Shown here piece after piece: positions 3,868 through 33,250 of a stretch of DNA of 64,000 nucleotides; position 1 is the first letter of the stretch, and the number at the start of each line of letters is the position of its first letter. Under the pieces are notes generated by a model that saw only the letters and a list, made by a program, of their open reading frames with translations, was not told the origin of the DNA and did no database searches. The stretch comes from Myxococcales bacterium (GTDB lineage: Bacteria > Myxococcota > Myxococcia > Myxococcales > Anaeromyxobacteraceae), in contig JAJZQX010000010.1 of assembly GCA_021806645.1 (NCBI GenBank), positions 62,001 to 126,000 of the forward strand, read 5' to 3'. The translations under genes were made by a program, and so were the position numbers.

Positions 3868-4653
3868 TCAGGCGGCGGCGGCGGCGCGGGCGGCGTAGGC
3901 CACGCCCACGGCGCCGATCTCCTGCGCGTACCGCGGCACGATGACCCGGCTGCCGATGGCCTGCTCCAGCAGCTCGACCACCATGTGGTGATGGGCGACG
4001 ACGCCGCCGGTCGCCACCACCGTCCCCTCGACCCGCTCCATCTCCAGCACCCGCTTGACCACCGAGCGATAGGCGGCCCGGGCCAGGTCGGCTGGCCGCT
4101 TTCCCTGGCGGATGAGCCCGAGCACCTCGGTCCCGGTGAAGACGGTGCAGAAGCTCCCCAGCTCGATCTCCTCGCGCGACGCCTGGGCCAGCGCCGGGAG
4201 CGCCCCGATGGGCACGTCGAGCCTGAGCGCCATCTCCTCGAGGAAGCTCCCCGTCCCGGCCGCGCACTTCCGGTTCATCTTGTGCGAGACTCTCCGGCCC
4301 TCCGCGTCCACGGTGATGATCTTGGCGTCCTGCCCGCCGATGTCGATGACGGTGAGTGGACCGGAGACGTACTGGAGGGCGCCCCGGGCGTGGGCGTCCA
4401 GCTCGGTGCGCGAGCTGGTGGCGTCGAGGATGGCGTGGCGGCCGAAGCCGGTGGTCCAGAGGGCGGTGACCGCGGAGCGATCGACGCCGGCGCGCTCCAG
4501 GAGATCGCGGACCACCTGCTCGGCGGCGGCCCGGACGTCGGCTCCGGTACGGACGATGGCCGTGGCCACCACCCGGCCCGCGGCGTCCACCAGGGCCGCC
4601 TTGGTGTTCCAGGAGCCGGAGTCGACCCCGGCGTAGCAGGGGGCGGCGCTCAT
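3868..4653 (-). CDS. BadF/BadG/HgdC-family activase ATPase (261 aa)
   Basis: This ATP-hydrolysing activase delivers low-potential electrons to a 2-hydroxyacyl-CoA dehydratase or benzoyl-CoA reductase partner. It has an ASKHA fold: GVDSGSWNTK near the N-terminus and DIGGQDAK as the second phosphate loop. The cluster-binding cysteines lie in RKCAAGTG and SFCTVF, which in HgdC-type dimers hold a bridging [4Fe-4S] cluster. At 261 residues it matches HgdC rather than the 440-residue BcrA. The ATG start overlaps the stop of the upstream dehydratase gene by four bases. A divergent second activase at 5936 suggests the two form a heterodimer, as BcrA and BcrD do. The acceptor is unknown. Confidence 0.88.
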   Translation of the reverse strand: MSAAPCYAGVDSGSWNTKAALVDAAGRVVATAIVRTGADVRAAAEQVVRDLLERAGVDRSAVTALWTTGFGRHAILDATSSRTELDAHARGALQYVSGPLTVIDIGGQDAKIITVDAEGRRVSHKMNRKCAAGTGSFLEEMALRLDVPIGALPALAQASREEIELGSFCTVFTGTEVLGLIRQGKRPADLARAAYRSVVKRVLEMERVEGTVVATGGVVAHHHMVVELLEQAIGSRVIVPRYAQEIGAVGVAYAARAAAAA

Positions 4654-5927
4654 CCGTGCCCCCCGCCGGCGGTGGCCGGAACCGCGCCTTCCAGCTGCTC
4701 GACGAAGGCCTCGATGTTGGTCCGGGCCTGCTCGTCGGAGAAGCAGCGCAGGTCGTTCAGGTCGCCGTCCAGCACCAGCACCGGGACGTGGGAGGCGCGG
4801 CGGAGCCGCTGGGCGAGGCCGAAGCGGACGTTGGAGTTGTTGGGGCAGGTCCGGGCGTCGTGGAAGACCAGGCCGTCGACCGAGAACTCGTGGGCCATCC
4901 GCTCCAGGTAGCGCTGCTTGGGTCCCTCGGCCCGTGCGATGAAGAGCTCGAGCGAGGCGCGGGCCATGGATCGGAGCGGGTCGCGAGGGTCGAGGGCGTC
5001 GAAGACCCAGCTGTTGCAGTAGGTCGAGGCCACCACGCTGGTTCCCAGGCTGGCGAAGAGCGTGGACAGGTCGCGGAGCCGGCCCCAGATCGGCATCCCG
5101 TCCCAGTAGAGCCGGAAGCGCTCCCGGTGCGGGGCGCCGGCCCCGGCGGTGACGCGCTCCGAGAGCTCGGCCTTGAGGAGCCGGTAGTAGTCGCAGGCCT
5201 CGGCGGTGCCGCGCAGGACCACCGCCGGCCCCATCTGGATGGTGGCGTCGAAGAAGGAGAGGGGCGCGGGCCGGGAGGCCGAGGAGTTCAGGCAGTCGCG
5301 CCACAGGTCGCTGCACGTCCGCGACCGTTCCACCGCCTGCTCCAATGCCGGCGCGTCGAGCCGCCGCCCGGCCACCGCCTCGAGGGCGGGGATCAGCCCC
5401 TCGAGCTGCCGGGTGATGGCCTCGACGTGGGAGTCCTCCACCTCGCCGAGATCGCGGAAGGAGGTGACCCCCACCACCGGGAGGTTCCACTCCCGCCCGT
5501 AGAACTCGAACCAGTCGCGGACCTCCCGGCACTGGTTGGTGCTGTAGAGGAGGAGGTCCGGGCGCGGGGCGCCGGAGAGGCCGTAGCGCGTCAGCGGGCT
5601 CTTCCGGGCCAGGTAGGCGCCGATGTCGCTGGTGAGATAGGAGCAGATGTCCGGGGAGTAGCCGAGGGCGTGGGCCCGGCCCATGACCTCGCCGGCGACG
5701 CGCGAGGCGCCGAGCAGGGCGCCGTGGTTCTCCGGGAAGAAGACCTGGTAGCCGAGGGCCCGGAGCAGCTCGACCGGTCCGACGCTGGTGCACCAGGCCA
5801 CCGGGGCGGACTTCTCACGGGCGGCGCGGTCCACGCCGGTGAAGTGGGCGGCCATCAGCTCCTTGAGCCGGGCCGAGGAGCGGAAGGTGGCCTCGGCGCT
5901 GCGGGACGGACGGTTGACGGTGGGCAT
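4650..5927 (-). CDS. 2-hydroxyacyl-CoA dehydratase / benzoyl-CoA reductase-like subunit with all cluster cysteines
   Basis: This 425-residue protein belongs to the HgdB/FldC/BcrB-C family. Three positions matching the [4Fe-4S] ligands of known dehydratases are present: Cys46 (AWCTSVGPVEL), Cys95 (DICSYLTSDIG) and Cys361 (ARTCPNNS). Another conserved-looking cysteine is at 133 (NQC). It lies between two activase genes, 8 bp from one and overlapping the other by four bases. Its likely partner subunit is the fused protein encoded at 6735-9014, which resembles it along its whole length. It is clearly different from BcrB and BcrC in this window, so it probably acts on another substrate. Whether it reduces an aromatic ring or dehydrates a 2-hydroxyacyl-CoA cannot be told from sequence. 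Confidence 0.85.
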   Translation of the reverse strand: MPTVNRPSRSAEATFRSSARLKELMAAHFTGVDRAAREKSAPVAWCTSVGPVELLRALGYQVFFPENHGALLGASRVAGEVMGRAHALGYSPDICSYLTSDIGAYLARKSPLTRYGLSGAPRPDLLLYSTNQCREVRDWFEFYGREWNLPVVGVTSFRDLGEVEDSHVEAITRQLEGLIPALEAVAGRRLDAPALEQAVERSRTCSDLWRDCLNSSASRPAPLSFFDATIQMGPAVVLRGTAEACDYYRLLKAELSERVTAGAGAPHRERFRLYWDGMPIWGRLRDLSTLFASLGTSVVASTYCNSWVFDALDPRDPLRSMARASLELFIARAEGPKQRYLERMAHEFSVDGLVFHDARTCPNNSNVRFGLAQRLRRASHVPVLVLDGDLNDLRCFSDEQARTNIEAFVEQLEGAVPATAGGGHG

Positions 5928-5935
5928 GGTCCTCC

Positions 5936-6709
5936 TCAGCCGCGGGCCTGGTCGAGCGCGTAGAGGGCGGCGCCGAAGGCGCCGGCCAGGATCGGCTCGG
6001 GAAGGATCTCGACGGAGAGCGCAGAGCGCTCCGCCAGCGCCTTCACCACGCCCGGGAAGTACTCGCACACGCCGCCGGTGATGTAGATGGGGTTCTCCAG
6101 GTGGTCGATCTCGAGGATCCGGTCGGCGATGGAGATCATGCAGCCGAGCGCGATCTCCCCGGCCGTGGATCCCTGGCGGAGCAGCTCGATGACCTCGACC
6201 TCGGAGAAGACCGAGCAGTAGCTCCCCACCGGGGCCGCCTTGGCCGCCGAGGTGGCCAGGTCCATGAGCCGGGTCGGGTGCACGTCGAGGTGGCGGGAGG
6301 CGAACATCAGGAAGGTGCCGATGCCGACCGCGCACTTGCGGACCGACCGGCTCGCGGTGACGGCGCCCCTGGCGTCGACGTGGATGACCTTGGGGTCACG
6401 GCCGCCGATGTCCACCACGGTCATCTCCTTCTTCACGGTGTGCCAGGCGCCGCGGGCGTGGCAGAGGGTCTCGGAGAGCGCCTGGCTGGCGATGGGGACG
6501 CAGGAGGCGGCGAAGCCGGTGGCGCAGACGGCGGCCAGCTGCGCCGCCGGGACCTTCGCTTCCTGGAGGGCGGTGCCGGTCGCCTCCTGGAAGCAGTCCT
6601 GGAAGTAGCCGCGGGTCGGCACCGTGGCCCGGCCCACGATCTTGCCGTCGCCGTCGACGACCACCGTCTTCACGCACTCGGTTCCGAGGTCCACTCCGGC
6701 CACCACCAT
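5936..6709 (-). CDS. Second BadF/BcrD-like activase ATPase (257 aa)
   Basis: This is an ASKHA-type ATPase of the activase family. The first phosphate loop reads GVDLGTECVK, closer to BcrD (GIDVGTGCVK here) than to BcrA. The second is DIGGRDPK. Cluster cysteines are kept in RKCAVGIG and SYCSVF, although the usual CAAGTG motif is altered. It lies 25 bp downstream of the ketopantoate-reductase/dehydratase fusion gene and 8 bp upstream of the second dehydratase subunit. A heterodimer with the 261-residue activase is the simplest reading. The target enzyme is inferred from the operon. Confidence 0.85.
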   Translation of the reverse strand: MVVAGVDLGTECVKTVVVDGDGKIVGRATVPTRGYFQDCFQEATGTALQEAKVPAAQLAAVCATGFAASCVPIASQALSETLCHARGAWHTVKKEMTVVDIGGRDPKVIHVDARGAVTASRSVRKCAVGIGTFLMFASRHLDVHPTRLMDLATSAAKAAPVGSYCSVFSEVEVIELLRQGSTAGEIALGCMISIADRILEIDHLENPIYITGGVCEYFPGVVKALAERSALSVEILPEPILAGAFGAALYALDQARG

Positions 6710-6734
6710 GTTCGACTCCTCGCCTGAAGTCCCG

Positions 6735-9014
6735 CTAGTGAGCCGCCGCCTCGCGAACCCCGCTGCCGTTGTTGGCGGCCCGCCGCTGCTCCACGAACTC
6801 GCGGAGCTGGGAGCGGATGTGGTCGACCGAGACCAGCCGGAGGTCGTGGGTGTCGGCCTCGATGACGATGGGGGTGACGCCGGTGTCGCGCCGGAGCCGG
6901 ATGTGCAGTCCGGAGCGCGCCGCGCTGTGGTCGGGGGCGGTCCGGGCGTCGTGGAAGATGGCGGCGTCCACGCCGTAGCGCGCGAACTCGCGGGCCAGGT
7001 ACTTGGCCTTGTGCTCGCGGGAGCGGTTCGGGTAGACGGAGGTGTAGGCGGCCGCCATGCTCTCGATGGGGTTCTCGCGCTGCAGCCCCTGGAGCGCGTA
7101 GGACTGCGAGTACCAGGAGCCGACCACCGCGATCCCCTCGTCGAGGAAGAGGCTGGCCAGCGGCCGCAGTGCGCACCAGATGGGCACCCCCTCCCAGAAG
7201 AAGCGGAATCGCTCGCCCGGCACGGCGGCGATCTTCCCGGCGATGCGGTACTTGAGCTCGGCCAGCAGGATCTCGTAGTAGCTGATGGCCTCCTCGGTCC
7301 CCCGCATCAGCAGCATGGGCGCCACGTGGATGATGGTGTCGAAGTAAGTGATGGGGCTGGGGGTGTGGCAGGCCAGATCGAGGATCTCGCCCCAGAGCTT
7401 GGCGGCGCGGGCCGAGCGGTCGACCACCTCGGCCAGCCGATCCTGGTCGAGGGTCCGCGCCGAGACCTTCTCGAGCCGGTCGACCAGCCGGAGCGTCTGC
7501 TGGACCGCGGCGTCGATCTCGATCTTCTCGACCTCGTTCAGGGCCGGCGGGGGGTGGAGGCCGAGCAGCGGGGCGCCGAGCCGGTTGCCGTAGTACTCGA
7601 ACCAGCGGGCCACGTAGGAGCCGATGTTGGTGTTGTAGAGCAGGACCGCCGGGGGAGGGACGCCGTCGAGCCCGTGGAGGCCGACCAGGGGCGACTCCCC
7701 GGCCAGCATGGCGCCCACGTCGCTGGCCATCTCGCTGGAGGCGAAGGGCGAGAAGCCGTCGGCCAGGGCCAGCCGGATGTACTTCCCGGTGAGCCGGCTG
7801 GCGCCGATGAGGGCGGCGTGGTTCTCGGGGAAGTAGGGGACGTAGCCGAGCGCCCGGGCGATCTCGACCGGGCCGTGGGTCGAGCACCAGGCCACGTTGC
7901 GGTCGCCGGCGGCCCGGGCCAGCTCCCGCCAGTAGCCGCTCAGGATCTCCTTGAGCTTCGGCGCGCTCTCCAGGGGCACCCGCCCCTGCGGCATCCCGGC
8001 GAAGGGAACCCGGTCCACCGGCCGTGAGGGCATCCTGGCCTGCGACTCCTTCACCCCGGCCAGCGTCACGGCGCCCCGCTCCTGGCGCCGCTGCTGCTCG
8101 CGCTCCCGTGAGTGGACCAGCTGGACGATGGCCCAGTTGAGCGGCGCCTTCATCCCCAGCCGCTCCGCCTCGGCGACGATGCCGCCGTTCATGGCGTCGA
8201 TCTCGGTGCGGAAGCCGCGCACCAGGTCCTGCCACATGGAGGGGCGGTTGCGCGCCAGGGCCTGCTGGGACCGGACGATGGGCCGGTAGGGATCCTCGGG
8301 ATCCTCGAGCGCGGTGCCCCGGGCCTTCATCACCTCGGCGATCTCCAGGCTGAGGCCGCGCATCAGCGCCTGCATCTCGTCGTCCTCGAGCAGCTCGCTG
8401 CAGCTCATCCCGGTCAGGGCCGAGATGGGGTTGACCACGGCGTTGTGGGCCAGCTTCTGCCAGACCACCGCGTCGACGCTCTCGACCACCTCGGTGGCCA
8501 TCCCGGCGCGGCGGAAGACCTCGCCGATGGCCCGGAGCTCGTCGGTGATCTTCCCGTCCACCGGCGCCATCTGGATGGGCTTGATGCCGGTCCGGTAGCG
8601 CATCCGGTTGGGGCCGGTGTGCTGGATGGAGTGGAAGGTGATCCCGGTGAGGATGCGGTCGCCCCCCACCACCGACCTGATCCGGTCGACGTTCCCGATG
8701 CCGTTCTGGGTGGAGAGGATCCAGGTCTTCTCGCCGATGACCGGGAGCCCGGCGCGGATGGCGCTCTCGGTCTGGTAGCTCTTCACCGCCACGAAGAGCA
8801 GGTCGGCGGGCGGCTGCCCCTCCAGCGTGGTGACCACCTTCAGCTGGACGTGCTGCTCGCCCATGTCCGATTCCGAGAGGAAGAGCCCCTGCTCGGCGAG
8901 GAGCTTGGCGCGGGCCACGTTGACCTCTAGGAAGGTGACGTCCTCTCCCGACGCGCCCAGGCGTGCTCCCATGAGCCCGCCGAGCGCCCCCGCACCGAGA
9001 ATCACGATCCGCAT
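6735..9014 (-). CDS. Fusion: ketopantoate reductase-like domain + 2-hydroxyacyl-CoA dehydratase-like subunit (759 aa)
   Basis: One uninterrupted frame encodes two complete proteins. Residues 1-305 are a PanE/ApbA-type NADP-dependent 2-oxoacid reductase. They include the GAGALGG Rossmann motif, and WQKLAHNAVVNPI with Lys187 and Asn191 at the catalytic positions. Glu271 is in TEIDAMNGG. After a charged linker (306-340), residues 341-759 match the dehydratase subunit at 4650. Two of that paralogue's three cluster cysteines are replaced: Ser426 and Ala693, with only Cys377 kept. An internal ATG at 8033, with an AAGGAG twelve bases upstream, could also start a separate 432-residue subunit. The start at 9014 begins the reductase domain exactly. 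It is the first gene of the left operon. Confidence 0.85.
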   Translation of the reverse strand: MRIVILGAGALGGLMGARLGASGEDVTFLEVNVARAKLLAEQGLFLSESDMGEQHVQLKVVTTLEGQPPADLLFVAVKSYQTESAIRAGLPVIGEKTWILSTQNGIGNVDRIRSVVGGDRILTGITFHSIQHTGPNRMRYRTGIKPIQMAPVDGKITDELRAIGEVFRRAGMATEVVESVDAVVWQKLAHNAVVNPISALTGMSCSELLEDDEMQALMRGLSLEIAEVMKARGTALEDPEDPYRPIVRSQQALARNRPSMWQDLVRGFRTEIDAMNGGIVAEAERLGMKAPLNWAIVQLVHSREREQQRRQERGAVTLAGVKESQARMPSRPVDRVPFAGMPQGRVPLESAPKLKEILSGYWRELARAAGDRNVAWCSTHGPVEIARALGYVPYFPENHAALIGASRLTGKYIRLALADGFSPFASSEMASDVGAMLAGESPLVGLHGLDGVPPPAVLLYNTNIGSYVARWFEYYGNRLGAPLLGLHPPPALNEVEKIEIDAAVQQTLRLVDRLEKVSARTLDQDRLAEVVDRSARAAKLWGEILDLACHTPSPITYFDTIIHVAPMLLMRGTEEAISYYEILLAELKYRIAGKIAAVPGERFRFFWEGVPIWCALRPLASLFLDEGIAVVGSWYSQSYALQGLQRENPIESMAAAYTSVYPNRSREHKAKYLAREFARYGVDAAIFHDARTAPDHSAARSGLHIRLRRDTGVTPIVIEADTHDLRLVSVDHIRSQLREFVEQRRAANNGSGVREAAAH

Positions 9015-9084: not shown

Positions 9085-9115
9085 ATTCTGGTACGCTTTT
9101 GCGTATATTGTCCAG
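9085..9115. promoter_or_regulatory. 31-bp conserved promoter/operator element, copy A
   Basis: This element lies in the 168-bp divergent region between the fusion gene (start 9014) and the dehydrogenase/hydratase gene (start 9183). It reads ATTCTGGTACGCTTTT, six variable bases, then ATTGTCCAG. The copy at 33220 is identical outside the six variable bases. Read towards the minus-strand operon it contains TGGACA, about 18 bp, then CAGAAT, which could be a -35/-10 pair. It also has an imperfect inverted repeat, CTGGTAC against GTCCAG, and so could be an operator. For the plus-strand gene, ATGACA (9080) and TATATT (9104) form a possible promoter. Confidence 0.6.
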
Positions 9116-11158: not shown

Positions 11159-12451
<1,293 letters not shown>

Positions 12452-12465
12452 GGGCGTCGATCGGG

Positions 12466-12519
12466 CCGCCGGCCCGGCGGTCGATTGCCGCAGCCGATCC
12501 GGCCTGGTTGTGCCGGATC
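12466..12519. promoter_or_regulatory. Hairpin and 24-bp palindrome upstream of the GNAT/Rrf2 pair
   Basis: Two symmetrical sequences fill the gap between thiolase and the GNAT gene. At 12466-12480, CCGCCGG and CCGGCGG form a tight GC hairpin without a T-run, possibly an attenuator or weak terminator. At 12496-12519, GATCCGGC and GCCGGATC form a perfect 8-bp inverted repeat around an 8-base spacer, ending 17 bp before the GNAT start. The second has the size and position of an autoregulatory operator for the downstream Rrf2 regulator. That is inference. Confidence 0.45.
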
Positions 12520-12536: not shown

Positions 12537-13022
12537 ATGGCTATGTCGTACCAGAAGACCAAGTCGCCCCAGCCGGTGCCCGGTGACGTCCGCATCCGCG
12601 CCGCTCGCCCCTCGGACCTGGCCGTGGTGGTGGCCCTCGATGCCGAGGACACCGGCATCTCGAAGCCCGCCTACTGGAAAAGCCGCTTCGAGTGGTACGT
12701 GGGGCGACGCCCGGACCGGTTCTTCCTGGTCGCCGAGCGATCGGAGGGGATGCTCGGCTTCATCGTCGGCGAGGTGAGAGCCTGGGAGTTCGGCTCGCCG
12801 CCGAGCGGCTGGATCTTTGCCATCGGCGTGAGCCAGGAGGCGCGCCTCCACGGCATCGGGAGCATGCTCTTCGACGAGATGTGCGTCCGCTTCCGCAAGG
12901 CGGGGGTGCGGCAGGTCCGCACCATGCTGGCCAAGGACAACCAGCTCATCATGTCCTTCTTCCGAAGCCTGGGGATGATGGCCGGGCCGTTCATCCAGCT
13001 GGAGATGGGGCTCGATCCATGA
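12537..13022 (+). CDS. badL: GNAT acetyltransferase, BadL-like
   Basis: This is a single-domain GNAT N-acetyltransferase of 161 residues. The acetyl-CoA-binding region is GVSQEARLHGIGSML, with beta4 and beta5 elements around it. Its stop overlaps the ATG of an Rrf2-type regulator. In Rhodopseudomonas palustris, BadL is a GNAT that acetylates aminobenzoates, and the products relieve repression by the Rrf2-family repressor BadM at the benzoyl-CoA reductase operon. The same family pair, in the same tight arrangement beside bcr genes, makes BadL the best match. A protein acetyltransferase that inactivates aryl-CoA ligases is an alternative. The family is certain; the BadL assignment rests on context. 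Confidence 0.75.
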   Translation: MAMSYQKTKSPQPVPGDVRIRAARPSDLAVVVALDAEDTGISKPAYWKSRFEWYVGRRPDRFFLVAERSEGMLGFIVGEVRAWEFGSPPSGWIFAIGVSQEARLHGIGSMLFDEMCVRFRKAGVRQVRTMLAKDNQLIMSFFRSLGMMAGPFIQLEMGLDP

Positions 13023-13462
13023 GAGTCCAGGTCGCCACCCGCCTCGCGCTCTTCGCCATCTTCGAGCTGGCCGCCGATCCCCGCCGCCAGCGCGCCGCCG
13101 CCGAGATCGCCCACCGCTATGGGATCTCGGTGAACCACCTCTCCAAGGTCTTGCGGACCCTGGGCCGCGCCGGGCTGGTCGAGGCGCTCCGCGGCGCGGG
13201 CGGGGGCTACCGGTTCAAGGGAAATCCGAGGCGGGTGACGCTCCTCGACGTCATCGAGCTCTTCGAGCCGATCGGCTCCACCAAGGGAGACGAGGAGCCC
13301 GAGGGGCCGTCGGCCGAGGGGCGGGCCTTGCGGAGGGTCTTCGACGAGGTAGACGACATCGCCCGGGCCACGCTCAGCTCAATCTCCCTCGCCACCATGT
13401 TGAAGCTGGTGGACGAGGCGCGGCGGCCACCGCCTCCAGCGCCGAGCCGCAGAGCCGGTTGA
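13019..13462 (+). CDS. badM: Rrf2-family transcriptional regulator, BadM-like
   Basis: This is a 147-residue winged-helix repressor. The Rrf2 pattern is clear from the start: MRVQVATRLALFAI, the helix-turn-helix around AAEIAHRYGISVNHLSKVL, then the wing GAGGGYRF. It has no cysteine at all, so it cannot bind the [2Fe-2S] cluster used by IscR or NsrR and more likely senses a small molecule. It is translationally coupled (ATGA) to the GNAT gene. BadM of Rhodopseudomonas represses the bad genes, and this protein may do the same for the bcr operon and itself. The last 44 bases overlap a thiolase remnant on the other strand, so the Pro-rich C-terminus may be an altered end. Confidence 0.8.
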   Translation: MRVQVATRLALFAIFELAADPRRQRAAAEIAHRYGISVNHLSKVLRTLGRAGLVEALRGAGGGYRFKGNPRRVTLLDVIELFEPIGSTKGDEEPEGPSAEGRALRRVFDEVDDIARATLSSISLATMLKLVDEARRPPPPAPSRRAG

Positions 13463-13658: not shown

Positions 13659-14843
13659 TCAGCTCGTGAAGGCCTGGAGACCGGTCTGGGACCGGCCCAG
13701 GATGAGGGCGTGGATGTCGTGCGTGCCCTCGTAGGTGTTCACCGACTCCAGGTTCATGACGTGCCGGATGACGTGGAACTCGTCGGAGATCCCGTTGGCC
13801 CCGTGCATGTCGCGGGCGACGCGGGCGATGGCCAGGGCCTTGCCGGCGTTGTTGCGCTTGATGAGCGAGACCATCTCCGGCGTCGCCTGGTGCCGGTCCA
13901 TGAGGCGTCCGACGCGGAGGCAGGCCTGCAGGCCGAGGGTGATCTCGGTCTGCATGTCGGCCAGCTTGAGCTGGACCAGCTGCGTGGCGGCCAGCGGCCG
14001 GCCGAACTGCTTGCGGTCGAGCGTGTATGTCCGGGCGGCGTGCCAGCAGAACTCGGCCGCGCCCATGGCGCCCCAGGCGATACCGTAGCGGGCCTTGTTG
14101 AGGCAGCCGAACGGTCCGCTCAGCCCCGAGGCGCCCGGGAGCCGCTGGGCGTCCGGGACCGCCACCTCGTCCATGACGATCTCGCCCGTGGACGAGGCGC
14201 GCAGGCTGAACTTGCCCTCCATCCTGGTGGCCGAGAGCCCCGGCATCCCCTTCTCCAGCAGGAACCCGCGGATCTTCCCCTCGTCGTCCTTGGCCCAGAC
14301 CACCAAGACGTCGGCGATGGGGGCGTTGGTGATCCACATCTTGGTCCCGCTCAGCACCCAGCCGTCCCCGGTCTTGCGGGCCCGGGTCCGCATGCTGCTC
14401 GGGTCGGAACCGGCATCCGGCTCGGTGAGGCCGAAGCAGCCGACCAGGTCGCCGCGGGCCAGGGGCGGGAGGTACTTCTGCCGCTGGGCCTCGCTGCCGT
14501 AGGCGTGGATGGGGTGCATGACCAGGCTCGACTGGACGCTCATGGCCGAGCGGTACCCGGAGTCGACCCGCTCCACCTCCCGGGCCACCAGGCCATACGC
14601 GACGTGGGAGGCGCCGGCGCAGCCGTACCCGTCGATGGTCGGCCCGAGCATGCCGAGCTGGCCCAGCTCGCGCAGGATCTCGCGGTCGAACTGCTCGCGG
14701 CGGTTGGCCTCCAGGATCCGCGGCATGAGCCGCTCCCGGCAGTAGTCGCGGGCGCTGTCGCGCACCATCCGCTCCTCGGCCGTGAGCTCGTCCTCGAGCC
14801 GCAGCGGGTCCTCCCACTGGAACACGGGATCGACGGAACTCAT
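13659..14843 (-). CDS. gcdH: Glutaryl-CoA dehydrogenase (decarboxylating)
   Basis: This FAD-dependent acyl-CoA dehydrogenase of 394 residues oxidises and decarboxylates glutaryl-CoA to crotonyl-CoA. The GcdH signatures are strong: [16 protein letters not shown] with the substrate-binding Arg, [15 protein letters not shown], and the catalytic Glu in [16 protein letters not shown] at the C-terminus. In anaerobic benzoate degradation glutaryl-CoA arises from thiolysis of 3-oxopimelyl-CoA, so this closes the route to central metabolism. It is transcribed divergently from the had-oah-dch-bcr operon. Its upstream region contains a partial copy of the 31-bp element found at 9085 and 33220. Confidence 0.95.
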
Positions 14844-14864: not shown

Positions 14865-14930
14865 CCCGGACGTTCCGGGGACCTGTTGACGACGAACAGT
14901 GGATTCTGGTACTGATTTACCACTTTGACT
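14865..14930. promoter_or_regulatory. Divergent gcdH / had control region with partial conserved element, copy B
   Basis: The 168-bp gap between gcdH and had holds two ordered elements. A perfect inverted repeat, CCCGGA-CGT-TCCGGG, lies at 14865-14879. At 14903-14912 ATTCTGGTAC repeats the left half of the 31-bp element seen at 9085 and 33220; the right half is not conserved. Here TGGTA-CTGATT-TACCA forms its own inverted repeat. Read towards gcdH the shared part is GTACCAGAAT, possibly a -10 region or operator half-site. The had promoter must lie in the same region. Confidence 0.5.
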
Positions 14931-15011: not shown

Positions 15012-16070
15012 ATGGCGCATCGCTGGGTGATGAAGCAGCCGGGTGAGCCACTGGTCATGGAGCCCATGGCGCTCGATGCGCCGCCGCCGGGCGGCGTCTG
15101 GATCGAGGTGGCCGGCTGCGGAGTCTGCCACACCGACCTGGGCTTCTTCCACGACGGGGTCCGGACCAACCACGCGCTCCCGCTCGCCCTCGGGCACGAG
15201 ATCAGCGGCCGCGTGGTCGCCGCCGGGCCAGGCGCCGAGTCGTGGCTCGGGCGCGCCGTCATCGTCCCGGCCGTCATCCCATGCGGCGAGTGCGACGCCT
15301 GCCGCCGCGGCAAGGGGACCATCTGCCCCACCCAGCAGATGCCCGGCAACGACATCCACGGCGGCTTCGCGACCCACGTCGCGGTCCCCGCCCGCGGTCT
15401 CTGCCCCGTCGACGAGGCGCGCCTGGCCCGGACCGGGCTGACCCTGGCCGACCTCTCGGTGGTGGCCGACGCGGTGACCACCCCGTACCAGGCGGTGGTC
15501 CAGGCGGGCGTGACCAGGGGAGCGCTGGCCATCGTGATCGGCGTGGGAGGGGTCGGCTCCTATGCGGCGCAGATCGCCAGGGCGCTCGGGGCCACGGTGG
15601 CGGCGGTGGATGTGGACCAGGCCAAGCTCGACCTCCTCGCCGCGCAGGGGGTGGCCACCGGCTTCAACCCCCGCACGCTCGACCAGAAGGCGCTCAAGAA
15701 GGCCATCGCCGAGTACGCCAGGAAGAGCGGGGCCACGGCGCGGGAGTGGATCATCTTCGAGTGCTCCGGCACGGCCGCCGGCCAGCTCACCGCCTGGGGC
15801 CTGCTGGTCCACGGCGCCACGCTGGCGGTGGTCGGGTTCACGCTCGACAAGGTCGAGGTGCGGCTCTCCAACCTGATGGCCTTCCACGCCCGGGCCCTGG
15901 GGAACTGGGGCTGCGCGCCGGAGCTCTACCCGGCCGCCCTCGACCTGGTGCTCGACGGGAAGGTCCAGCTGGCCCCCTTCGTCGAGCGCCGACCGCTGGC
16001 CGAGGTGAACGCCGTGTTCGCCGAGGCCCACCAGAAGAAGCTCTCCCGCCGCGCCATCCTCGTCCCCTAG
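15012..16070 (+). CDS. had: 6-hydroxycyclohex-1-ene-1-carbonyl-CoA dehydrogenase
   Basis: This zinc-type alcohol dehydrogenase of 352 residues oxidises 6-hydroxycyclohex-1-ene-1-carbonyl-CoA to the 6-oxo compound with NAD. Zinc ligands are visible in [10 protein letters not shown] and GHE. Structural-zinc cysteines are in [16 protein letters not shown]. The Rossmann motif is [11 protein letters not shown] choose ATG at 15012, where the MDR domain begins and GAGGGAGG lies upstream; a start at 14925 would add an unlikely leader. It is the first gene of the operon and is followed 19 bp later by oah, the next pathway step. That neighbour makes the assignment specific. Confidence 0.93.
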
Positions 16071-16089
16071 AGCCTGGAGGAGATTCGAC

Positions 16090-17235
16090 ATGTCGAAAAG
16101 GACGGAAGCCGTGACTGGCGCGACGGCGCCAGCTTCGGCCAAGGACCACCAGCTGGCGCCGTTCCCGGGCGCCGTGGGCGTCCGCTTCGAGAAGCGCCCG
16201 GCGCGCCGCCCCGACGGGACCGAGGTCCCGGGGCTCTTCAACGCCTGGATCGTCCTCGACAACCAGGCCCAGTTCAACTCCTACACCACCGACATGGTGA
16301 AGGCGGTCATCCTCGCCTTCGGCGCGGCCTCCAGCGCCCGCGACGTGGTGTCGGTGGTGTTCACCGGCGCCGGGGACAAGGCCTTCTGCACCGGGGGGAA
16401 CACCAAGGAGTACGCCGAGTACTACGCCGGCAATCCGCAGGAGTACCGGCAGTACATGCGGCTCTTCAACGACATGGTGAGCGGCATCCTCGGCTGCGAC
16501 AAGCCGGTGATCTGCCGCGTCAACGGCATGCGCATCGGCGGCGGCCAGGAGATCGGCATGGCCTGCGACTTCACCATCGCCCAGGACCTGGCCCGCTTCG
16601 GGCAGGCCGGTCCCAAGCACGGCTCCGCCCCCATCGGCGGCGCCACCGACTTCCTCCCCGTCCTCCTCGGCGCCGAGCGGGCCATGGAGACGGGCCTGCT
16701 CTGCGAGCCGTGGTCGGCCCACCGCGCCTACCGCGAGGGGATGATCACCGACCTGGTCCCGGCCCTGAAGGTGGACGGCAAGTTCGTCGCCAACCCGTTG
16801 GTCTGGACCGACCGCCTTCTCGACGAGTACGGCCGCTTCCTCCACGGCGAGCCCAAGACCGGGACGGCGCTGGCCGAGGGCAAGGAGCTGCTGAGGCGAG
16901 GGACCGTGGACCTCGGCCGGCTCGACGAGCGGGTCGAGCAGCTCTGCGCCAAGCTCCTCCTCACCTTCCCCGACTGCACCACCAAGACCATCGAGGAGCT
17001 GCGCAAGCCCAAGCTGCGGGCCTGGACCGCCAACAAGGAGAACTCGCGCGCCTGGCTGGCCCTCAACATGATGACCGAAGGCCGCACCGGCTTCCGGGCC
17101 TTCAACGAGGGGACCAAGGACGACCGGGAGGCCGACTTCGTGGCCCTCCGGCAGGCCCTGGCCCGCGCCACCCCCTGGAGCCCGGAGCTGGTCGAGAGCC
17201 TGCTCCCCGCCGCCAAGGCGGACGGAGGCCGGTGA
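16090..17235 (+). CDS. oah: 6-oxocyclohex-1-ene-1-carbonyl-CoA hydrolase (ring-opening)
   Basis: This is the ring-cleaving crotonase of anaerobic aromatic degradation, called Oah in Thauera and BamA in obligate anaerobes. It adds water to 6-oxocyclohex-1-ene-1-carbonyl-CoA and opens the ring to 3-hydroxypimelyl-CoA. The 381-residue length fits the family. Typical blocks are DNQAQFNSYTTDMVKAVILA, AFCTGGNTKEYAEYYAGNP and MRIGGGQEIGMACDF. It starts with ATG at 16090 behind GGAGG and shares bases with dch through a TGATG junction. The family is used as a marker of this metabolism. Confidence 0.96.
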   Translation: MSKRTEAVTGATAPASAKDHQLAPFPGAVGVRFEKRPARRPDGTEVPGLFNAWIVLDNQAQFNSYTTDMVKAVILAFGAASSARDVVSVVFTGAGDKAFCTGGNTKEYAEYYAGNPQEYRQYMRLFNDMVSGILGCDKPVICRVNGMRIGGGQEIGMACDFTIAQDLARFGQAGPKHGSAPIGGATDFLPVLLGAERAMETGLLCEPWSAHRAYREGMITDLVPALKVDGKFVANPLVWTDRLLDEYGRFLHGEPKTGTALAEGKELLRRGTVDLGRLDERVEQLCAKLLLTFPDCTTKTIEELRKPKLRAWTANKENSRAWLALNMMTEGRTGFRAFNEGTKDDREADFVALRQALARATPWSPELVESLLPAAKADGGR

Positions 17236-18017
17236 TGGCCGCCGCCGCTCCGGTGCGCGCCTGGCGCGAACGCGACGGCCGGCTCCTCCGGATCCGGCTC
17301 GACCGGCCCAAGGCCAACGTCCTCGACGCGGCCATGGTCGCGGCCCTCGACGCCGCCTTCGCCGAGGCCGTGGCCGCGGGGAAGGGGCCCGCGCTGCGTG
17401 GGATCCTCCTCGACGCCGAGGGTCCGCACTTCAGCTTCGGCGCCAGCGTCGAGGAACACCTCCCGGCGACCTGCGCCGGCATGCTCCGCGGCTTCCACGC
17501 GCTCCTGCTCCGCATGCTCGAGCTTCCGGTCCCCATCCTGGTGGCGGTGAAGGGGCAGTGCCTCGGGGGCGGGCTGGAGCTGGCCTGCGCTGGACACCTG
17601 GTCTTCGCCGCCCCGGACGCCAAGCTGGGCCAGCCGGAGATCATCCTCGGGGTCTTCGCCCCGGCCGCCTCCTGCCTGCTCCCGGAGCGGATCGGCCCGG
17701 GCGCGGCCGACGACCTGCTCCTCTCCGGCCGCTCCATCGACGGCGTCGAGGCGCACCGGCTGGGGCTGGCCTGCGCAGTGGCCGCCGATCCCGAGGCCGC
17801 CGCGCTGGCCTGGTTCGACGCCCACCTGGCCGGCCGCTCCGCCGTCTCGCTCGGCTTCGCCGCCCGCGCCGCCCGCCTCGGACTCGCCGAGCGGGTCCGC
17901 CCAAGGCTGGCGGCCCTGGAGGCCATCTACCTCGACGACCTCATGAAGCGCCGCGACCCGGTCGAGGGGCTCACCGCCTTCCTGGAGAAGCGTCCGGCCC
18001 GCTGGGAGGACCGCTGA
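17235..18017 (+). CDS. dch: Cyclohexa-1,5-diene-1-carbonyl-CoA hydratase
   Basis: This crotonase-fold protein of 260 residues hydrates cyclohexa-1,5-diene-1-carbonyl-CoA, the product of benzoyl-CoA reductase, to the 6-hydroxy compound. Diagnostic stretches are LDRPKANVLDAAM, SFGASVEEHLP and GQCLGGGLELA. The start codon ATG at 17235 overlaps the oah stop. The following bcrC begins 2 bp after its stop. The order had-oah-dch-bcr matches the chemistry run in reverse and resembles the gene content of Thauera and Rhodopseudomonas clusters. Confidence 0.92.
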   Translation: MAAAAPVRAWRERDGRLLRIRLDRPKANVLDAAMVAALDAAFAEAVAAGKGPALRGILLDAEGPHFSFGASVEEHLPATCAGMLRGFHALLLRMLELPVPILVAVKGQCLGGGLELACAGHLVFAAPDAKLGQPEIILGVFAPAASCLLPERIGPGAADDLLLSGRSIDGVEAHRLGLACAVAADPEAAALAWFDAHLAGRSAVSLGFAARAARLGLAERVRPRLAALEAIYLDDLMKRRDPVEGLTAFLEKRPARWEDR

Positions 18018-18019
18018 CC

Positions 18020-19195
18020 ATGGCGACCATCACCACCGCCGCCCTGGTGGCGCGATGCCAGGCGCTCTTCGACGACATCTCCTTTGGCGCGGCGCGCCAG
18101 TGGAAGGCGGCCGCTCCGGGGCGGAAGGTCGTCGCCTACATGCCCATCTACGTGCCCCGCGAGATCATCCACGCGGCCGGGATGCTGCCGCTCGGGATCC
18201 TCGGGGCCGGCGAGAGCCTCGAGGTCATCCATGGCGACGCCTACTACCAGAGCTACATCTGCCGCATCCCACGCTCCACCCTCGACCTCGGGATCACCGG
18301 CCGCCTCGACTTCGTGGACGGGTTCCTCTTCCCCTCCATCTGCGACGTCATCCGCAACCTCTCGGGCATCTGGAAGATCCTCTTCCCCGAGGTCTACGTC
18401 CGCTACTTCGACGTGCCGCAGAACTTCGACCCGGAGGTGGGCGGGACGTTCTACCGGCACGAGCTCCAGGAGCTCCGTGAGGGCCTGGCGCGACTGGCCG
18501 GGAGCCCCATCAGCGACGACGCGCTGCGGGCCTCCTTTGCCCTCTACAACCGGAACCGGCGGCTGGTCCGCGAGCTCTACGCCTTCCGGGCCGAGGCCCC
18601 CTGGCGGGTGCCGGCCTCGGAGCTGTACCTGGTGCAGCGGGCCGGGATGGTGCTCCCGGTCGAGGAGCACAACCAGCTGCTGGCCGACTACCTGGCCGCG
18701 GCCCGGGCCGAGGAGCGGCCGCGACGCGACAACTGCCGCGTCGTGCTCAACGGCGTCTTCTGCGAGCAGCCTCCACTCAGCCTCATCAAGGCCATCGAGA
18801 TGTCGGGCTGTTACGTGGTCGACGACGACTTCATGCTGGTGAACCGGTGGCTGCTCGAGGACCTCCCCGTGAGCGGTGACCCCATCGCCGCCCTGGCGAC
18901 CGCCTTCCTCGGCGGCTCGACCGAGACCGGGGCCAAGTACCAGCCGCGCCGGGAGCTCAAGGGGCGCTACATCCTCGACGCGGTTCGGGCCAGCGCCGCC
19001 GAGGGCGTCATCTTCGCCGCCCCCAGCTTCTGCGATCCGGCGCTGCTGGAGCGGCCCATGCTCGAGGCGGTCCTGGATCGCGTCGACGTCCCGCACATCG
19101 GCTTCAAGTACGCGGAGAACTCCGCCCAGATGCAGCCGGTGCGGGAGCAGGCCGGCACCTTCGCCGACTCGATCAAGCTCTGGAGCGCGCCATGA
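18020..19195 (+). CDS. bcrC: Benzoyl-CoA reductase subunit C
   Basis: This is one of the two substrate-binding subunits of class I, ATP-dependent benzoyl-CoA reductase (391 residues, HgdB/BcrBC family). With BcrB it carries the active site, where the ring is reduced by two electrons to the cyclic diene. Characteristic blocks are [20 protein letters not shown], the cysteine in [25 protein letters not shown], and a late cysteine in [11 protein letters not shown]. The next gene, bcrB, starts four bases before its stop. The bcrC-B-A-D order is that of Thauera aromatica and of badDEFG. Confidence 0.94.
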
Positions 19196-20511
19196 CCGCG
19201 AGTGCCCCGTCCCATCGCTCGCCGGTCCCGGTCCGGGAGGTCGTGAAGGAAGCGTCGATGGTGAAGCAGAAGGAGATGATCGCGCGCAACTACGATCTCC
19301 TCACCAGCACCGCCGAGCATGGCCGCAAGGTCGCCTCCACCTTCGTCCCGGGCAACCTGAACGAGCTGATCATGTGCTTCGACATGCTCAACAACCTCCC
19401 CGAGATCAACGCCATCCAGAACGGGATGCGCAAGCTCTCCGGCGACTACATCGCCGAGGCGGAGAAGCGCGGCCACTCCGAGGACGTCTGCACCTACGTG
19501 AAGGCCGACCTGGGGATGATCGCCAAGGGCAACGTCTCGCCCAATGGCAAGCCGCTGCCGCGCCCCGACCTGCTGCTGCTCTCCTACACCGGCTGCTTCA
19601 CCTTCATGAAGTGGTTCGAGCTCCTCCGCGAGGAGTACAAGTGCCCCACCGTCATGCTCCACGTGCCCTACCAGGGGGACGGGGAGACGACCAAGAACAT
19701 GCGGGACTACATCGTGAAGCAGCTGCGCCAGGAGGTCATCCCCGCCCTGGAGCGGGTCTCCGGCGTGAAGTTCGACATCGACCGGCTGCGTGGGTACCTG
19801 CGGGAGTCGGCGCGCGCCGAGGACGACCTGGTCTGGGTCCTGGAGAGCGCCAAGAACAAGCCGGCGCCCATCGACGCCTACTTCGGCGGCGTCTACTACA
19901 TCGGCCCCATCTTCACGGCCTTCCGCGGCACGCCCGACGCGACCGAATACTACCGGCTGCTCCGGTCGGAGATCACCGAGCGGATCCGGCTGGGGCTGGG
20001 GCCCATCACGCCGGAAGGCGACATGAAGAGCCAGAAGTACCGGCTGGTGGTGGAGGGGCCGCCCAACTGGACCAGCTTCCGCGAGTTCTGGAAGATGTTC
20101 TACGACGACGGGGCGGTGGTGGTGGCCTCGAGCTACACCAAGGTCGGCGGCACCTACGACCTCGGCTTCCGCCACGACCCCGACCACCCCCTCGAGTCGC
20201 TGGCCGACTACTGCATGGGGGTCTACACCAACCGCAACCTGCCTCAGCGGATCGACCTGCTCGAGAAGTACATGGACGAGTACCAGGCCGACGGGCTCCT
20301 CATCAACTCCATCAAGAGCTGCAACAGCTTCTCGGCCGGCCAGCTCATGATCATGCGCGAGGTCGAGAAGCGCACCGGGAAGCCGGCCGCCTTCATCGAG
20401 ACCGACCTGGTCGATCCCCGCTACTTCTCCGCCGCCAACGTGAAGAACCGGCTGGAGAGCTACTTCCAGATGATCGACCAGAAGCGCGGCAGCGCCCCGT
20501 CCGCGGCCTGA
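19192..20511 (+). CDS. bcrB: Benzoyl-CoA reductase subunit B
   Basis: This is the second substrate-binding subunit of class I benzoyl-CoA reductase (439 residues). Family features include the cysteine in [29 protein letters not shown] and the late [14 protein letters not shown], which provide the expected cluster ligands. The first 22 residues are a weakly structured leader and Met23 could be an alternative start. The ATG at 19192 overlaps the bcrC stop in the ATGA arrangement used through this operon. It acts with BcrC and receives electrons from the BcrA-BcrD activase. Confidence 0.94.
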
Positions 20512-20531
20512 CCGGAGCGGGGAGGACGTCC

Positions 20532-21863
20532 ATGAAGTGCTACATCGGCATCGACCTCGGCTCGACCACCACCAAGTCGGTGATCGTCGACGAGCAGGCC
20601 AAGGTGCTGGGGCGCGGCATCACCAACTCCCGCTCCAACTACGACACCGCCGCGGCGGTCTCCAAGCAGGAGGCCTTGGTGGCCGCCCGCTTCACGCTCT
20701 TCCGGCGCGCCCTCTCCGCGACCCCGGCCCTGGCGGGCCGCGTCGACGGGCTCCTCGTCGACCTCGAGCGCCACTTCCGCCTGGTGCAGTTCCGGGCCCA
20801 GCTCGAGGATCTCGAGGAGACCTGCCTGCGCCACAGCGGAGGCCTGCGCTTCGCCGGGCAGGAGCGGGCCCTGGCCGAGGCGCTGGGCGCGGTCTTCCGC
20901 GAACTCCGCGAGGAGGCGATCGCGCTCTTCGCGCCCGGGGCGCGCCGCCGCTCCGACTTCTTCCGGGACCTGGCCGGATCAGGCTTCATGACGGCCGCGG
21001 AGCCGGTCTGCAAGGCGTCGGGCCTCTCCTTCGACCTCATGCTCAACGTCTACGACAAGTCGATCATCGAGGTGGAGAACCGGAAGGGCGAGGCCGGGAT
21101 GGACGGGAAGTTCCTCGAGGCGCTCGACAGCGTGCTCCGCACTCGCGCCGCCGGCGGGGCGGCGGCGGGACCGCCGCTGGTCGCCGACGAGGTGGTCCGG
21201 CCGGTGCGGGCCGCGCTGCAGATCCCGCTCGAGGAGGTCTACGTGGTCGGGACAGGTTACGGGCGGGTCCGCCTCCCCTTCCCCAAGGAGCACATCCGCT
21301 CCGAGATCCTCTGCCACGGGCTCGGCGCCCACCTCATGCACGAGGGGACGCGAACCGTCCTCGACATCGGCGGCCAGGACACCAAGGCGATCCAGGTGGA
21401 CGAGAACGGCATCGTCGAGAACTTCCAGATGAACGACCGCTGCGCGGCCGGCACCGGGCGCTACCTGGGCTACGTCGCCGACGAGATGCAGATGGGGCTC
21501 CACGAACTCGGGCCCATGGCGCTCCAGGCCACCAAGACGCTGCGCATCAACTCGACCTGCACGGTCTTCGCCGGCGCCGAGCTCCGCGACCGGCTGGCGC
21601 TGGGCGACAAGCGCGAGGACATCCTGGCCGGCCTGCACCGCGCCATCATCCTGCGCGCCATGTCGATCATCTCCCGCTCCGGCGGGATCCGGGACCAGTT
21701 CACCTTCACCGGCGGCGTCGCCAAGAACGAGGCGGCGGTCAGGGAGCTCCGCAATCTCGTGAAGGAGAACTACGGCGACGTCACCATCAACATCAACCCG
21801 GACTCGATCTACACCGGCGCGCTCGGGGCGGCGGCATTCGCCCGGCGCGGCGCGGCGGCCTGA
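20532..21863 (+). CDS. bcrA: Benzoyl-CoA reductase subunit A (activase, large)
   Basis: This is the larger ATP-binding, electron-activating subunit (443 residues). The ASKHA loops are [10 protein letters not shown] at the N-terminus and DIGGQDTK around residue 280. Cluster cysteines lie in DRCAAGTG and NSTCTVF. The insertion of about 180 residues between the two loops distinguishes BcrA/BadF from the short BcrD and HgdC proteins. It follows bcrB by 20 bp with GGGGAGGA upstream. Hydrolysis of ATP by BcrA and BcrD drives electrons from ferredoxin to BcrB-BcrC. Confidence 0.95.
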
Positions 21864-21880
21864 CCGGACCAGGAGGCGTG

Positions 21881-22723
21881 ATGACCATCACCGCGGGAAT
21901 CGACGTCGGCACCGGGTGCGTCAAGGTCGCGCTCTTCGAGACCGGCGGCGGTGCGCCGCGCTGGCTGGGGCGGCGCGTCGAGCGGATCCGCCAGCGCAAT
22001 CCCTACGCGCTCGCCGGCGACGCCTTCGACGCCCTCCTGGAGGAGGCCGGGCTCCGCCGCGGCGATGTCGCCTACATCGCCACCACCGGCGACGGCGAGA
22101 GCATATCCTTCGCCACCGGCCACTTCTACTCGATGACCACGCACGCCCGCGGGGCCATCCACCTCGACCCCTCGACCCGGCTGGTCCTCGACGTCGGGGC
22201 GCTCCACGGTCGGGCCATCCGCACCGACGCCCGCGGCAAGGTGCTCTCCTACAAGATGACCAGCCAGTGCGCCTCGGGCTCCGGCCAGTTCCTCGAGAAC
22301 ATCGCGCGCTACCTCGGCATCGCCCAGGACGAGATCGGCACCCTCTCGCTCCAGGGGACCGCCCCGGAGAAGGTCTCCTCCATCTGCGCGGTGCTGGCCG
22401 AGACCGACGTCATCAACATGGTCTCGCGCGGCATCTCGGCCGCCAACATCTTGAAGGGCATCCACGTCTCCATGGCGCAGCGGCTGGCCGCGCTGGTCAG
22501 GGGGATCGGCGTGCTGGAGGGGACGGTCCTGGTCACCGGCGGCCTCGGGCTCGACCGCGGGCTGGTCGCCGCCATCCAGGAGGCGAGCGCCGAGGCCCAG
22601 CTGCCGGTCCAGGTGAGGAGCCACCCCGACGCCATCTACGCCGGGGCCATCGGCGCGGCGCTGTGGGGTGCCTTCCGTCACGAGAAGCTCTCCGCGCGGC
22701 CCCCCGGCGCGCTCGCCTCGTAG
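21881..22723 (+). CDS. bcrD: Benzoyl-CoA reductase subunit D (activase, small)
   Basis: This is the smaller activase subunit of class I benzoyl-CoA reductase (280 residues). It begins GIDVGTGCVK, has the second loop DVGALHGR and holds cluster cysteines in SQCASGSG and SSICAVL. AGGAGG sits four bases before the ATG at 21881. With BcrA it should form the heterodimer that binds ATP and one [4Fe-4S] cluster. No ferredoxin gene follows, unlike the clusters of Thauera and Rhodopseudomonas, so the electron donor is encoded elsewhere or is one of several cellular ferredoxins. Confidence 0.94.
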   Translation: MTITAGIDVGTGCVKVALFETGGGAPRWLGRRVERIRQRNPYALAGDAFDALLEEAGLRRGDVAYIATTGDGESISFATGHFYSMTTHARGAIHLDPSTRLVLDVGALHGRAIRTDARGKVLSYKMTSQCASGSGQFLENIARYLGIAQDEIGTLSLQGTAPEKVSSICAVLAETDVINMVSRGISAANILKGIHVSMAQRLAALVRGIGVLEGTVLVTGGLGLDRGLVAAIQEASAEAQLPVQVRSHPDAIYAGAIGAALWGAFRHEKLSARPPGALAS

Positions 22724-23684: not shown

Positions 23685-24409
23685 CCGCTTCCACCACCTC
23701 CAGCGCGGGTCGGTTCGACGGCCGCTGCGCCCTCGTCACGGGTGGCGCTCGCGGCATCGGCCGTGGCATCGCCGAGCGGCTGGCCCGGCTCGGCGCCGAG
23801 GTCCACGTCCTCGACCGGGAGCCGGGGGCCGGCGGCGACGGGATCCGGCAGCACGGGGTCGACATCACCGACGGCCGGGCGGTGGCGGCGGCCGTCGGCG
23901 CGCTGCCGCGCCCGCCCCTGCTCCTGGTCAACAACGCCGGGATCACCCGGGACCGCAGCCTCCTCAAGATGAGCGACGAGGAGTGGAACTCGGTGATCGA
24001 CGTGAACCTCACCGGCGCCTTCCACGTCCTGCGGGCGGTGGCTCCGGGCATGGTGGCGGCGGGCTACGGTCGCATCGTCAACGTGGTCTCCATCAACGGG
24101 CTCCGGGGCAAGTTCGGGCAGGCCAACTACAGCGCCTCCAAGGCCGGGCTGGTCGGGCTCACCAAGACCGCCGCCCGGGAGCTGGGACCGAAGGGGATCA
24201 CCGTGAACGCGGTGGCGCCCGGGATGGTCCTCACCGAGATGACCCTGGCCCTGGCCGAGGAGCACCGGCGCAGGGCGCTGGAGGAGACCCTGCTGAAGCG
24301 GCTCCCGGAGGTGGATGACGTGGCCGCCGTGGTCCTCTTCCTGCTCTCCGACGACGCCCGCATGGTCACCGGCGAGGTGATCCGGGTGGATTCCGGGCAG
24401 TACATCTAG
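23681..24409 (+). CDS. Short-chain dehydrogenase/reductase, FabG-like
   Basis: This 242-residue classical SDR has TGGARGIGRG for nucleotide binding, NNAG, catalytic Ser in VVSINGLRGK, and YSASK with the catalytic Tyr and Lys. It overlaps the double-GNAT gene by four bases and ends the bcr operon, 13 bp from a convergent ligase gene. It resembles 3-oxoacyl reductases. In this operon it could oxidise or reduce a cyclic or acyclic hydroxyacyl-CoA, like the SDR-type 2-hydroxycyclohexanecarboxyl-CoA dehydrogenase BadH. The exact substrate cannot be read from sequence. Confidence 0.85.
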   Translation: MTASTTSSAGRFDGRCALVTGGARGIGRGIAERLARLGAEVHVLDREPGAGGDGIRQHGVDITDGRAVAAAVGALPRPPLLLVNNAGITRDRSLLKMSDEEWNSVIDVNLTGAFHVLRAVAPGMVAAGYGRIVNVVSINGLRGKFGQANYSASKAGLVGLTKTAARELGPKGITVNAVAPGMVLTEMTLALAEEHRRRALEETLLKRLPEVDDVAAVVLFLLSDDARMVTGEVIRVDSGQYI

Positions 24410-33219: not shown

Positions 33220-33250
33220 ATTCTGGTACGCTTTTACTGGAATTGTCCAG
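33220..33250. promoter_or_regulatory. 31-bp conserved promoter/operator element, copy C
   Basis: The element lies between iorA (start 33189) and a divergent envelope-protein gene (start 33399). It is identical to the copy at 9085 in 25 of 31 positions, all differences being in the central six bases, and keeps the same length. Read towards iorA it offers TGGACA and CAGAAT about 18 bp apart, placing transcription start close to the iorA start codon. It may be a promoter, an operator of a common regulator, or both. Confidence 0.65.

Follow-up and report, generated by a model that had tools for sequence, protein, structure and literature searches.

In the current work, a 64,000-nucleotide stretch of DNA from a member of the Anaeromyxobacteraceae (Myxococcota; contig JAJZQX010000010.1), hereafter called the window, was found to carry a GNAT acetyltransferase gene and an Rrf2 regulator gene that together most probably form the BadL/BadM control module described for Rhodopseudomonas palustris by VanDrisse and Escalante-Semerena (2018, mBio; PMC6191541). 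Taken with the mechanism of repression and ligand release proposed below, this reading is given a probability of about 85%. The two genes are as follows.

12537..13022, plus strand, BadL-type GNAT acetyltransferase (161 amino acids; Pfam Acetyltransf_1, PF00583, E 3e-10; alternative start ATG at 12543)
13019..13462, plus strand, BadM-type Rrf2 repressor (147 amino acids; Pfam Rrf2, PF02082, E 5e-26, and TIGR00738; zero cysteines)

An earlier note, made from the letters of the DNA, had described a four-base overlap and a cysteine-free Rrf2 protein. Both can be confirmed: the GNAT stop and the Rrf2 start share 4 nucleotides (ATGA), and no cysteine occurs among the 147 residues of the Rrf2 protein, whose stop at 13462 ends the pair. 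An Rrf2 gene lies directly downstream of the GNAT gene in all 80 named loci (the best 80 of 475 relatives); the arrangement is thus not due to chance. After removal of 30 duplicate loci, 129 BadL-type GNATs were retained, and 127 of them are directly followed by a BadM-type gene, with gaps from -4 to 192 nucleotides. The overlap of exactly 4 nucleotides recurs in 36 of these 127 pairs.

For R. palustris, badM and badL were taken to be the Rrf2 and GNAT genes that adjoin a benzoate-CoA ligase gene (TIGR02262) and the genes of the reductase. The window GNAT is 47% identical to this BadL and the window Rrf2 protein 52% identical to this BadM. Two active BadL homologues are 41% and 47% identical to R. 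palustris BadL (PMC6191541); judged by sequence identity, the window GNAT is about as close to BadL as homologues with demonstrated activity. A hidden Markov model (HMM) of the BadL family, built from 9 sequences including that of the window, gave the window GNAT 264 bits and Escherichia coli RimI 20, and it separated the 129 de-duplicated GNATs (at least 142 bits; range 142-266) from all other GNATs found (at most 88). The window Rrf2 protein reached 247 bits as against 43 for IscR and 54 for NsrR, and the paired Rrf2 proteins scored 145-247 bits, except for a truncated one (107). Against the rimI family, the window GNAT scored 30.7 bits, below the cut-off of 86.4, and it matched no NCBIfam aminoglycoside-acetyltransferase model at E 0.001 (antibiotic acetyltransferases are absent from the tree).

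In the GNAT tree (152 rows, quick run), a BadL-type set of 127 rows, including those of R. palustris, the Geobacter order and Magnetospirillum, appeared with moderate support (Shimodaira-Hasegawa-like approximate likelihood ratio test, SH-aLRT, 87). In the Rrf2 tree (132 rows, quick run, omitting one truncated pair member), the window protein stood with R. palustris BadM and apart from IscR and NsrR, with a weak outgroup split (62). Both window proteins group with Geobacter-order and Magnetospirillum homologues and away from E. coli RimI, IscR and NsrR, and the window Rrf2 protein is also separate from the other Rrf2 proteins of the same genome. According to the earlier note, its reading would fail if the GNAT clustered with ribosomal or antibiotic acetyltransferases and the Rrf2 protein with unrelated regulators. 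The trees did not bear this out: the GNAT did not fall with RimI, nor the Rrf2 protein with unrelated regulators. The identification as BadL and BadM is supported by this grouping of both proteins with their R. palustris counterparts. The predicted model of the Rrf2 protein is a winged helix (predicted local distance difference test, pLDDT, 90) that matches RsrR, IscR and CymR, and that of the GNAT has an ordinary GNAT fold (pLDDT 80). Inference of the substrate pocket from the GNAT model was dropped, residues 135-150 having a pLDDT below 50.

The pair lies in a genome of 4.14 Mb, and the closest named relative at the locus is an Anaeromyxobacter metagenome-assembled genome (L028), with a GNAT identity of 82%. 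The surrounding genes are listed below.

11159-12451, thiolase, upstream of the GNAT gene
13659..14843, minus strand, glutaryl-CoA-dehydrogenase-like gene (acyl-CoA dehydrogenase; PF02771/PF00441; NF045552 207 bits, below cut-off), divergent from the had-bcr operon
15012..16070, plus strand, had, 6-hydroxycyclohex-1-ene-1-carbonyl-CoA dehydrogenase (TIGR03201 551 bits, over cut-off)
16090..17235, plus strand, oah, 6-oxocyclohex-1-ene-1-carbonyl-CoA hydrolase (TIGR03200 636 bits, over cut-off)
17232..18017, plus strand, dch, cyclohexa-1,5-dienecarbonyl-CoA hydratase (TIGR03189 394 bits, over cut-off)
18020..19195, plus strand, bcrC-like reductase subunit (by position and a tblastn match to the same slot in related loci; the bcrC query was partly out of frame and BcrC identities are rough)
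19192..20511, plus strand, bcrB, benzoyl-CoA reductase subunit B (TIGR02260 855 bits, over cut-off)
20532..21863, plus strand, bcrA-like subunit (by position and tblastn across loci)
21881..22723, plus strand, bcrD-like subunit (by position and tblastn across loci)

The run had-oah-dch-bcrCBAD (15012-22723) is a class I benzoyl-CoA cluster, situated downstream of the pair across the minus-strand glutaryl-CoA-dehydrogenase-like gene. With a thiolase on one side and this cluster on the other, the pair does lie between lower-pathway and bcr genes, as had been claimed. The two exceptions to direct adjacency among the 129 GNATs (L014 and L015) both come from other myxobacterial families; there, the GNAT gene separates oah from dch, and the Rrf2 gene follows bcrD in divergent orientation (Rrf2 scores of 88 and 97 bits). 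This placement of a BadL-type and a BadM-type gene is seen in L191 and L192, which represent two other myxobacterial families and whose had promoters carry strong operator sites.

A predicted operator for BadM was found in the divergent promoter between the glutaryl-CoA-dehydrogenase-like gene and the had-oah-dch-bcrCBAD operon. It is a palindrome with the core GGTA-N6-TACC, and the candidate sites of the window, together with a putative promoter box, are the following.

14903..14926, no strand, predicted BadM operator ATTCTGGTACTGATTTACCACTTT (24.9 bits; best site in the 64-kb window)
14886..14891, plus strand, putative -35 box TTGACG, whose spacing puts the operator over the -10 region
9085..9108, no strand, second operator-like site (17.7 bits), flanked by the starts of a minus-strand dehydrogenase-like open reading frame (9014) and of a fused hydroxyacyl-CoA dehydrogenase/crotonase (9183)
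33220..33243, no strand, third operator-like site (17.0 bits), about 30 nucleotides upstream of an indolepyruvate-oxidoreductase-like alpha subunit (minus strand, start 33189; TIGR03336 498 bits, below the cut-off of 651)

All three sites stand shortly upstream of cluster genes. These window scores come from the second of the two matrices described below. The next non-overlapping site in the window scores 7.1 bits, and 20 shuffles peak at 2.0-12.7. The exact pattern TTNTGGTAN6TACC occurs once in the 4.14-Mb genome. A generic promoter scan did not call the putative promoter at the first site.

The signal emerged when DNA upstream of had or bcrC was compared among relatives. Expectation maximisation (EM) on 15 such regions from outside the family, three of which (L194-L196) belong to clusters without BadL/BadM, gave a likelihood gain of 92.4 at width 20, versus 36-41 in six shuffles, and of 106.6 at width 24, versus 42-48. 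Dinucleotide shuffles, 6 per width, served as nulls for EM, and single-base shuffles for the matrix scans. A first matrix was built from seven target-promoter sites (L040, L086, L090, L104, L107, L191, L192), and a second from 52 distinct GNAT-upstream sites picked with the first, so that one set of sites depends in part on the other; none of the 52 came from the family, and the window was never in training. With the first matrix, 109 of the 129 GNAT upstream regions exceed their own 95% shuffle level. In the 80 named loci, 96 sites of at least 18 bits were counted versus 0.4 in shuffles, such a site being present in 67 loci and at badL in 46. Three of five Acidobacteriota loci, two of four in Betaproteobacteria and most of the 22 Geobacter-order loci have one. 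Across four phyla, the predicted operator is located close to badL, to the ring-reduction operon or to both. Of the 27 target promoters, 22 were examined and 16 carry a site; the six without are L193-L196, L039 (134 nucleotides only) and L184 (Geobacter order). TTGAC starts 21-22 nucleotides before GGTA in 9 of the 16 site-bearing promoters, and therefore the site would overlap the -10 box.

Several other candidates were tried and set aside. Alignment of the Anaeromyxobacteraceae GNAT upstream regions only produced no shared site. A palindrome upstream of badL in the window (12496-12519) scores only 0.4. A site at the badL start codon reaches about 23 bits in L032 and L033, but its counterparts in the window and in the nearest relative score only 7.1 and 2.9; because of the low window score, and because coding constraint confounds the comparison, it is not claimed. 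When only the core is sought and one mismatch allowed, the window has 6 matches where 3.2 are expected, which is no clear enrichment, and therefore the operator claim rests on the full matrix. A loose-pattern scan of the whole genome was dominated by chance (191 matches with at most 2 mismatches, versus 231 for a control pattern), so that only the exact match is informative.

Trees that conflict with the species relationships suggest how the module came to this family. The window falls in a supported set of nine rows in the GNAT, Rrf2 and pair trees (99, 95 and 100/98, respectively), which consists of the window, six Anaeromyxobacteraceae relatives and two copies from Azospirillum sp. TSO22-1; the pair tree is a careful run on 69 of the 127 pairs. 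In the BcrB tree (37 rows, leaving out five loci that duplicate genomes already included), the family joins the alphaproteobacterial type (99) and not the BcrB of other myxobacterial families. Uniting the pairs of the family with SAR324/other delta-type pairs was rejected on the pair tree (approximately unbiased, AU, test, p = 0.0001), a grouping that was chosen after the single-gene trees had been seen. At thresholds of at least 63% for GNAT, at least 84% for BcrB and at least 200 bits for BadM, all three proteins occur in the same 6 of 23 other family members and none in the remaining 17, of which 4 have only distant BcrB relatives (31-33%). Among 36 order-level relatives, BcrB at 61-70% was found in 6: in two of them BadL/BadM-like genes are present but separated, and the other four lack both.

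Movement of the pair together with the reductase genes, raised as a possibility in the earlier note, finds support in the GNAT, Rrf2, pair and BcrB trees, where all three proteins stand with copies from Azospirillum and other alphaproteobacteria, and in the perfect co-occurrence within the family. On this evidence, the family most probably acquired the module by transfer, in linkage with class I bcr genes of alphaproteobacterial type. For transfer between Azospirillum sp. TSO22-1 and the family, the trees support neither direction: the Azospirillum rows are sister to all seven family rows in the pair tree, versus inside them in the BcrB tree (SH-aLRT 92).

The following mechanism is proposed; its substrate and ligand and the sense of the control are inferred by analogy with the work on R. 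palustris. The cysteine-free BadM would bind the palindrome as a dimer and cover the -10 box of the had-oah-dch-bcrCBAD promoter, thereby blocking it. BadL would acetylate an arylamine, probably an aminobenzoate, with acetyl-CoA, and the acetamido product would free BadM. What was obtained here is the gene anatomy, the orthology, the linkage of the pair, the co-occurrence, the species-conflicting trees and a conserved candidate operator. It also seems rather probable that BadL/BadM is a mobile control cassette that travels with ring-reduction genes and whose operator AAaTnGGTAtTnnAaTACCnAtTT can still be recognised in Pseudomonadota, Myxococcota, the Geobacter order and Acidobacteriota. In the window, control would then reach beyond the reductase and take in a beta-oxidation gene as well as the operon of an oxidoreductase; in two other myxobacterial families, where the two genes lie apart inside one bcr gene cluster and the operator is kept, the parts would still act together.

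Several observations weigh against the proposed circuit. The whole-genome profile search found no TIGR02262 benzoate-CoA ligase over the cut-off (best 213 versus 375 bits). Many orthologous pairs do not adjoin bcr genes in the DNA examined: among 81 loci, 33 show none of the queried reference genes. In Paramagnetospirillum caucaseum (L096, 5041-8103), the pair adjoins hydrogenase-like genes, and BadL/BadM may control something else there. None of three SAR324/other delta-type loci has a site of at least 18 bits, with weak sites only (12.4-16.0). The candidate operator is a correlate of BadM. At the pair's own start in the window, no convincing operator was found (7.1 bits; shuffles reach 12.7), and therefore autoregulation is not supported in the window. 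Finally, release of R. palustris BadM in vitro took 10 mM 2-acetamidobenzoate, and 5 mM was without effect (PMC6191541); therefore, the true ligand of BadM may differ.

The high ligand concentration, the lack of a recognisable benzoate-CoA ligase and the homologous pairs beside other genes all favour a possible, if tentative, alternative, in which the pair is BadL/BadM by descent and the enzyme acetylates another aromatic amine whose product BadM senses. The window also contains genes resembling phenylacetate-CoA ligase and indolepyruvate oxidoreductase, and an operator-like site accompanies the latter. However, all three aminobenzoates were acetylated by both of the homologues that share 41% and 47% identity with R. 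palustris BadL, and each gave partial complementation (PMC6191541); the window protein, at 47%, is about as close.

The palindrome could instead belong to a different regulator of the pathway, since the R. palustris reductase promoter is also controlled by AadR (PMC6191541). This is unlikely, however, as the palindrome stands upstream of badL itself in many genomes, and is absent from the four examined bcr loci without BadL/BadM (L193-L196; best score -1.7, L193 being cut by a contig end). It is also present where BadL/BadM-type genes are separated within the cluster (L191 and L192; 29.8 and 40.1). In the R. palustris locus, the top-scoring site, at -100 to -77 of badD, falls inside the 212-nucleotide BadM gel-shift probe (-191 to +21).

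Acetylation of a protein, either a CoA ligase or the Rrf2 regulator, in place of a small molecule is suggested by the best PDB fold matches of the GNAT, which at 18-20% identity are N-acetyltransferases of proteins, Naa60 for example; small-molecule enzymes are nevertheless also among the matches at this level and nothing links a protein target to the pair, making this explanation improbable. That the Rrf2 protein is an iron-sulfur (Fe-S) or redox regulator of IscR/NsrR type placed here by chance is hardly credible, for despite the common superfamily and fold it has no cysteine at all, the cluster loop lacks cysteine in 113 of the 127 paired Rrf2 proteins (as in R. palustris BadM), and IscR and NsrR lie outside the BadM group in score and tree.

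Further genes of the neighbourhood were also recorded. Directly after bcrD, a two-domain tandem GNAT (22743-23684) occurs with a short-chain dehydrogenase/reductase gene (23681-24409). This tandem GNAT forms its own clade in the GNAT tree. Of 18 loci with enough flanking sequence, 7 have it no more than 5 kb from bcrD, and it is also found in further family genomes. Upstream of the pair, on the minus strand at 4650-8000, are two more benzoyl-CoA-reductase/2-hydroxyglutaryl-CoA-dehydratase-like genes with activase-like partners, at 29-30% identity to BcrB. A divergent BadL/BadM-type pair was observed on a conjugative plasmid of Agrobacterium tumefaciens (L027, 20007-20950), flanked by molybdenum hydroxylase genes on one side and by a liv transporter plus a benzoate-CoA ligase on the other; the 40 kb inspected contain no annotated bcr gene.

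The earlier note had remarked that the circuit, if the same, would lie outside the alphaproteobacteria. The identification is supported, but such a location is not new, as a functional BadL of Geobacter metallireducens (Gmet_2096) had already been shown to acetylate aminobenzoates. Both the circuit and its occurrence beyond alphaproteobacteria are in print (PMC6191541). In the accessible text of a 2024 survey, BadM is placed near benzoate-CoA ligases only in Alphaproteobacteria (PMC10803450). What is new here is the predicted operator. Open-literature listings contained no BadM operator, the footprint study of Peres and Harwood (2006) lying outside that coverage, and the operator may already be partly known for R. 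palustris; such listings likewise showed no paper on benzoyl-CoA reduction in Anaeromyxobacter. Here the BadL/BadM pair is documented for several phyla; within one family it accompanies class I bcr genes and is not found without them. The predicted operator would provide a means of reading the regulon in any such genome, and would make the question of the physiological ligand of BadM testable with short DNA probes and many natural pairs.

The window resembles the BadL/BadM locus of R. palustris in having orthologous GNAT and Rrf2 genes, identically ordered and next to the genes of a class I benzoyl-CoA reductase; in both, an operator is predicted in the reductase promoter. The host is a member of the Myxococcota, however, and the lower pathway is of the had/oah type, whereas that of R. 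palustris is BadK/H/I (PMC6191541). The window genes overlap by 4 nucleotides, while badL and badM of R. palustris are spaced and, unlike the window pair, stand at the end of a run of liv-type transporter genes. Gmet_2096 and amb3392 of Magnetospirillum magneticum, for which aminobenzoate acetylation in vitro and partial complementation are reported in PMC6191541, are likewise paired with Rrf2 genes; Geobacter-order and Paramagnetospirillum loci served here as stand-ins for their sequences. With IscR, NsrR, CymR and RsrR, the window BadM shares the fold and winged-helix DNA binding of the Rrf2 superfamily, but it differs in lacking the cluster cysteines, a trait whose use to define BadM is our own reading and not taken from a paper, and it appears to belong to a separate subfamily with its own predicted operator.
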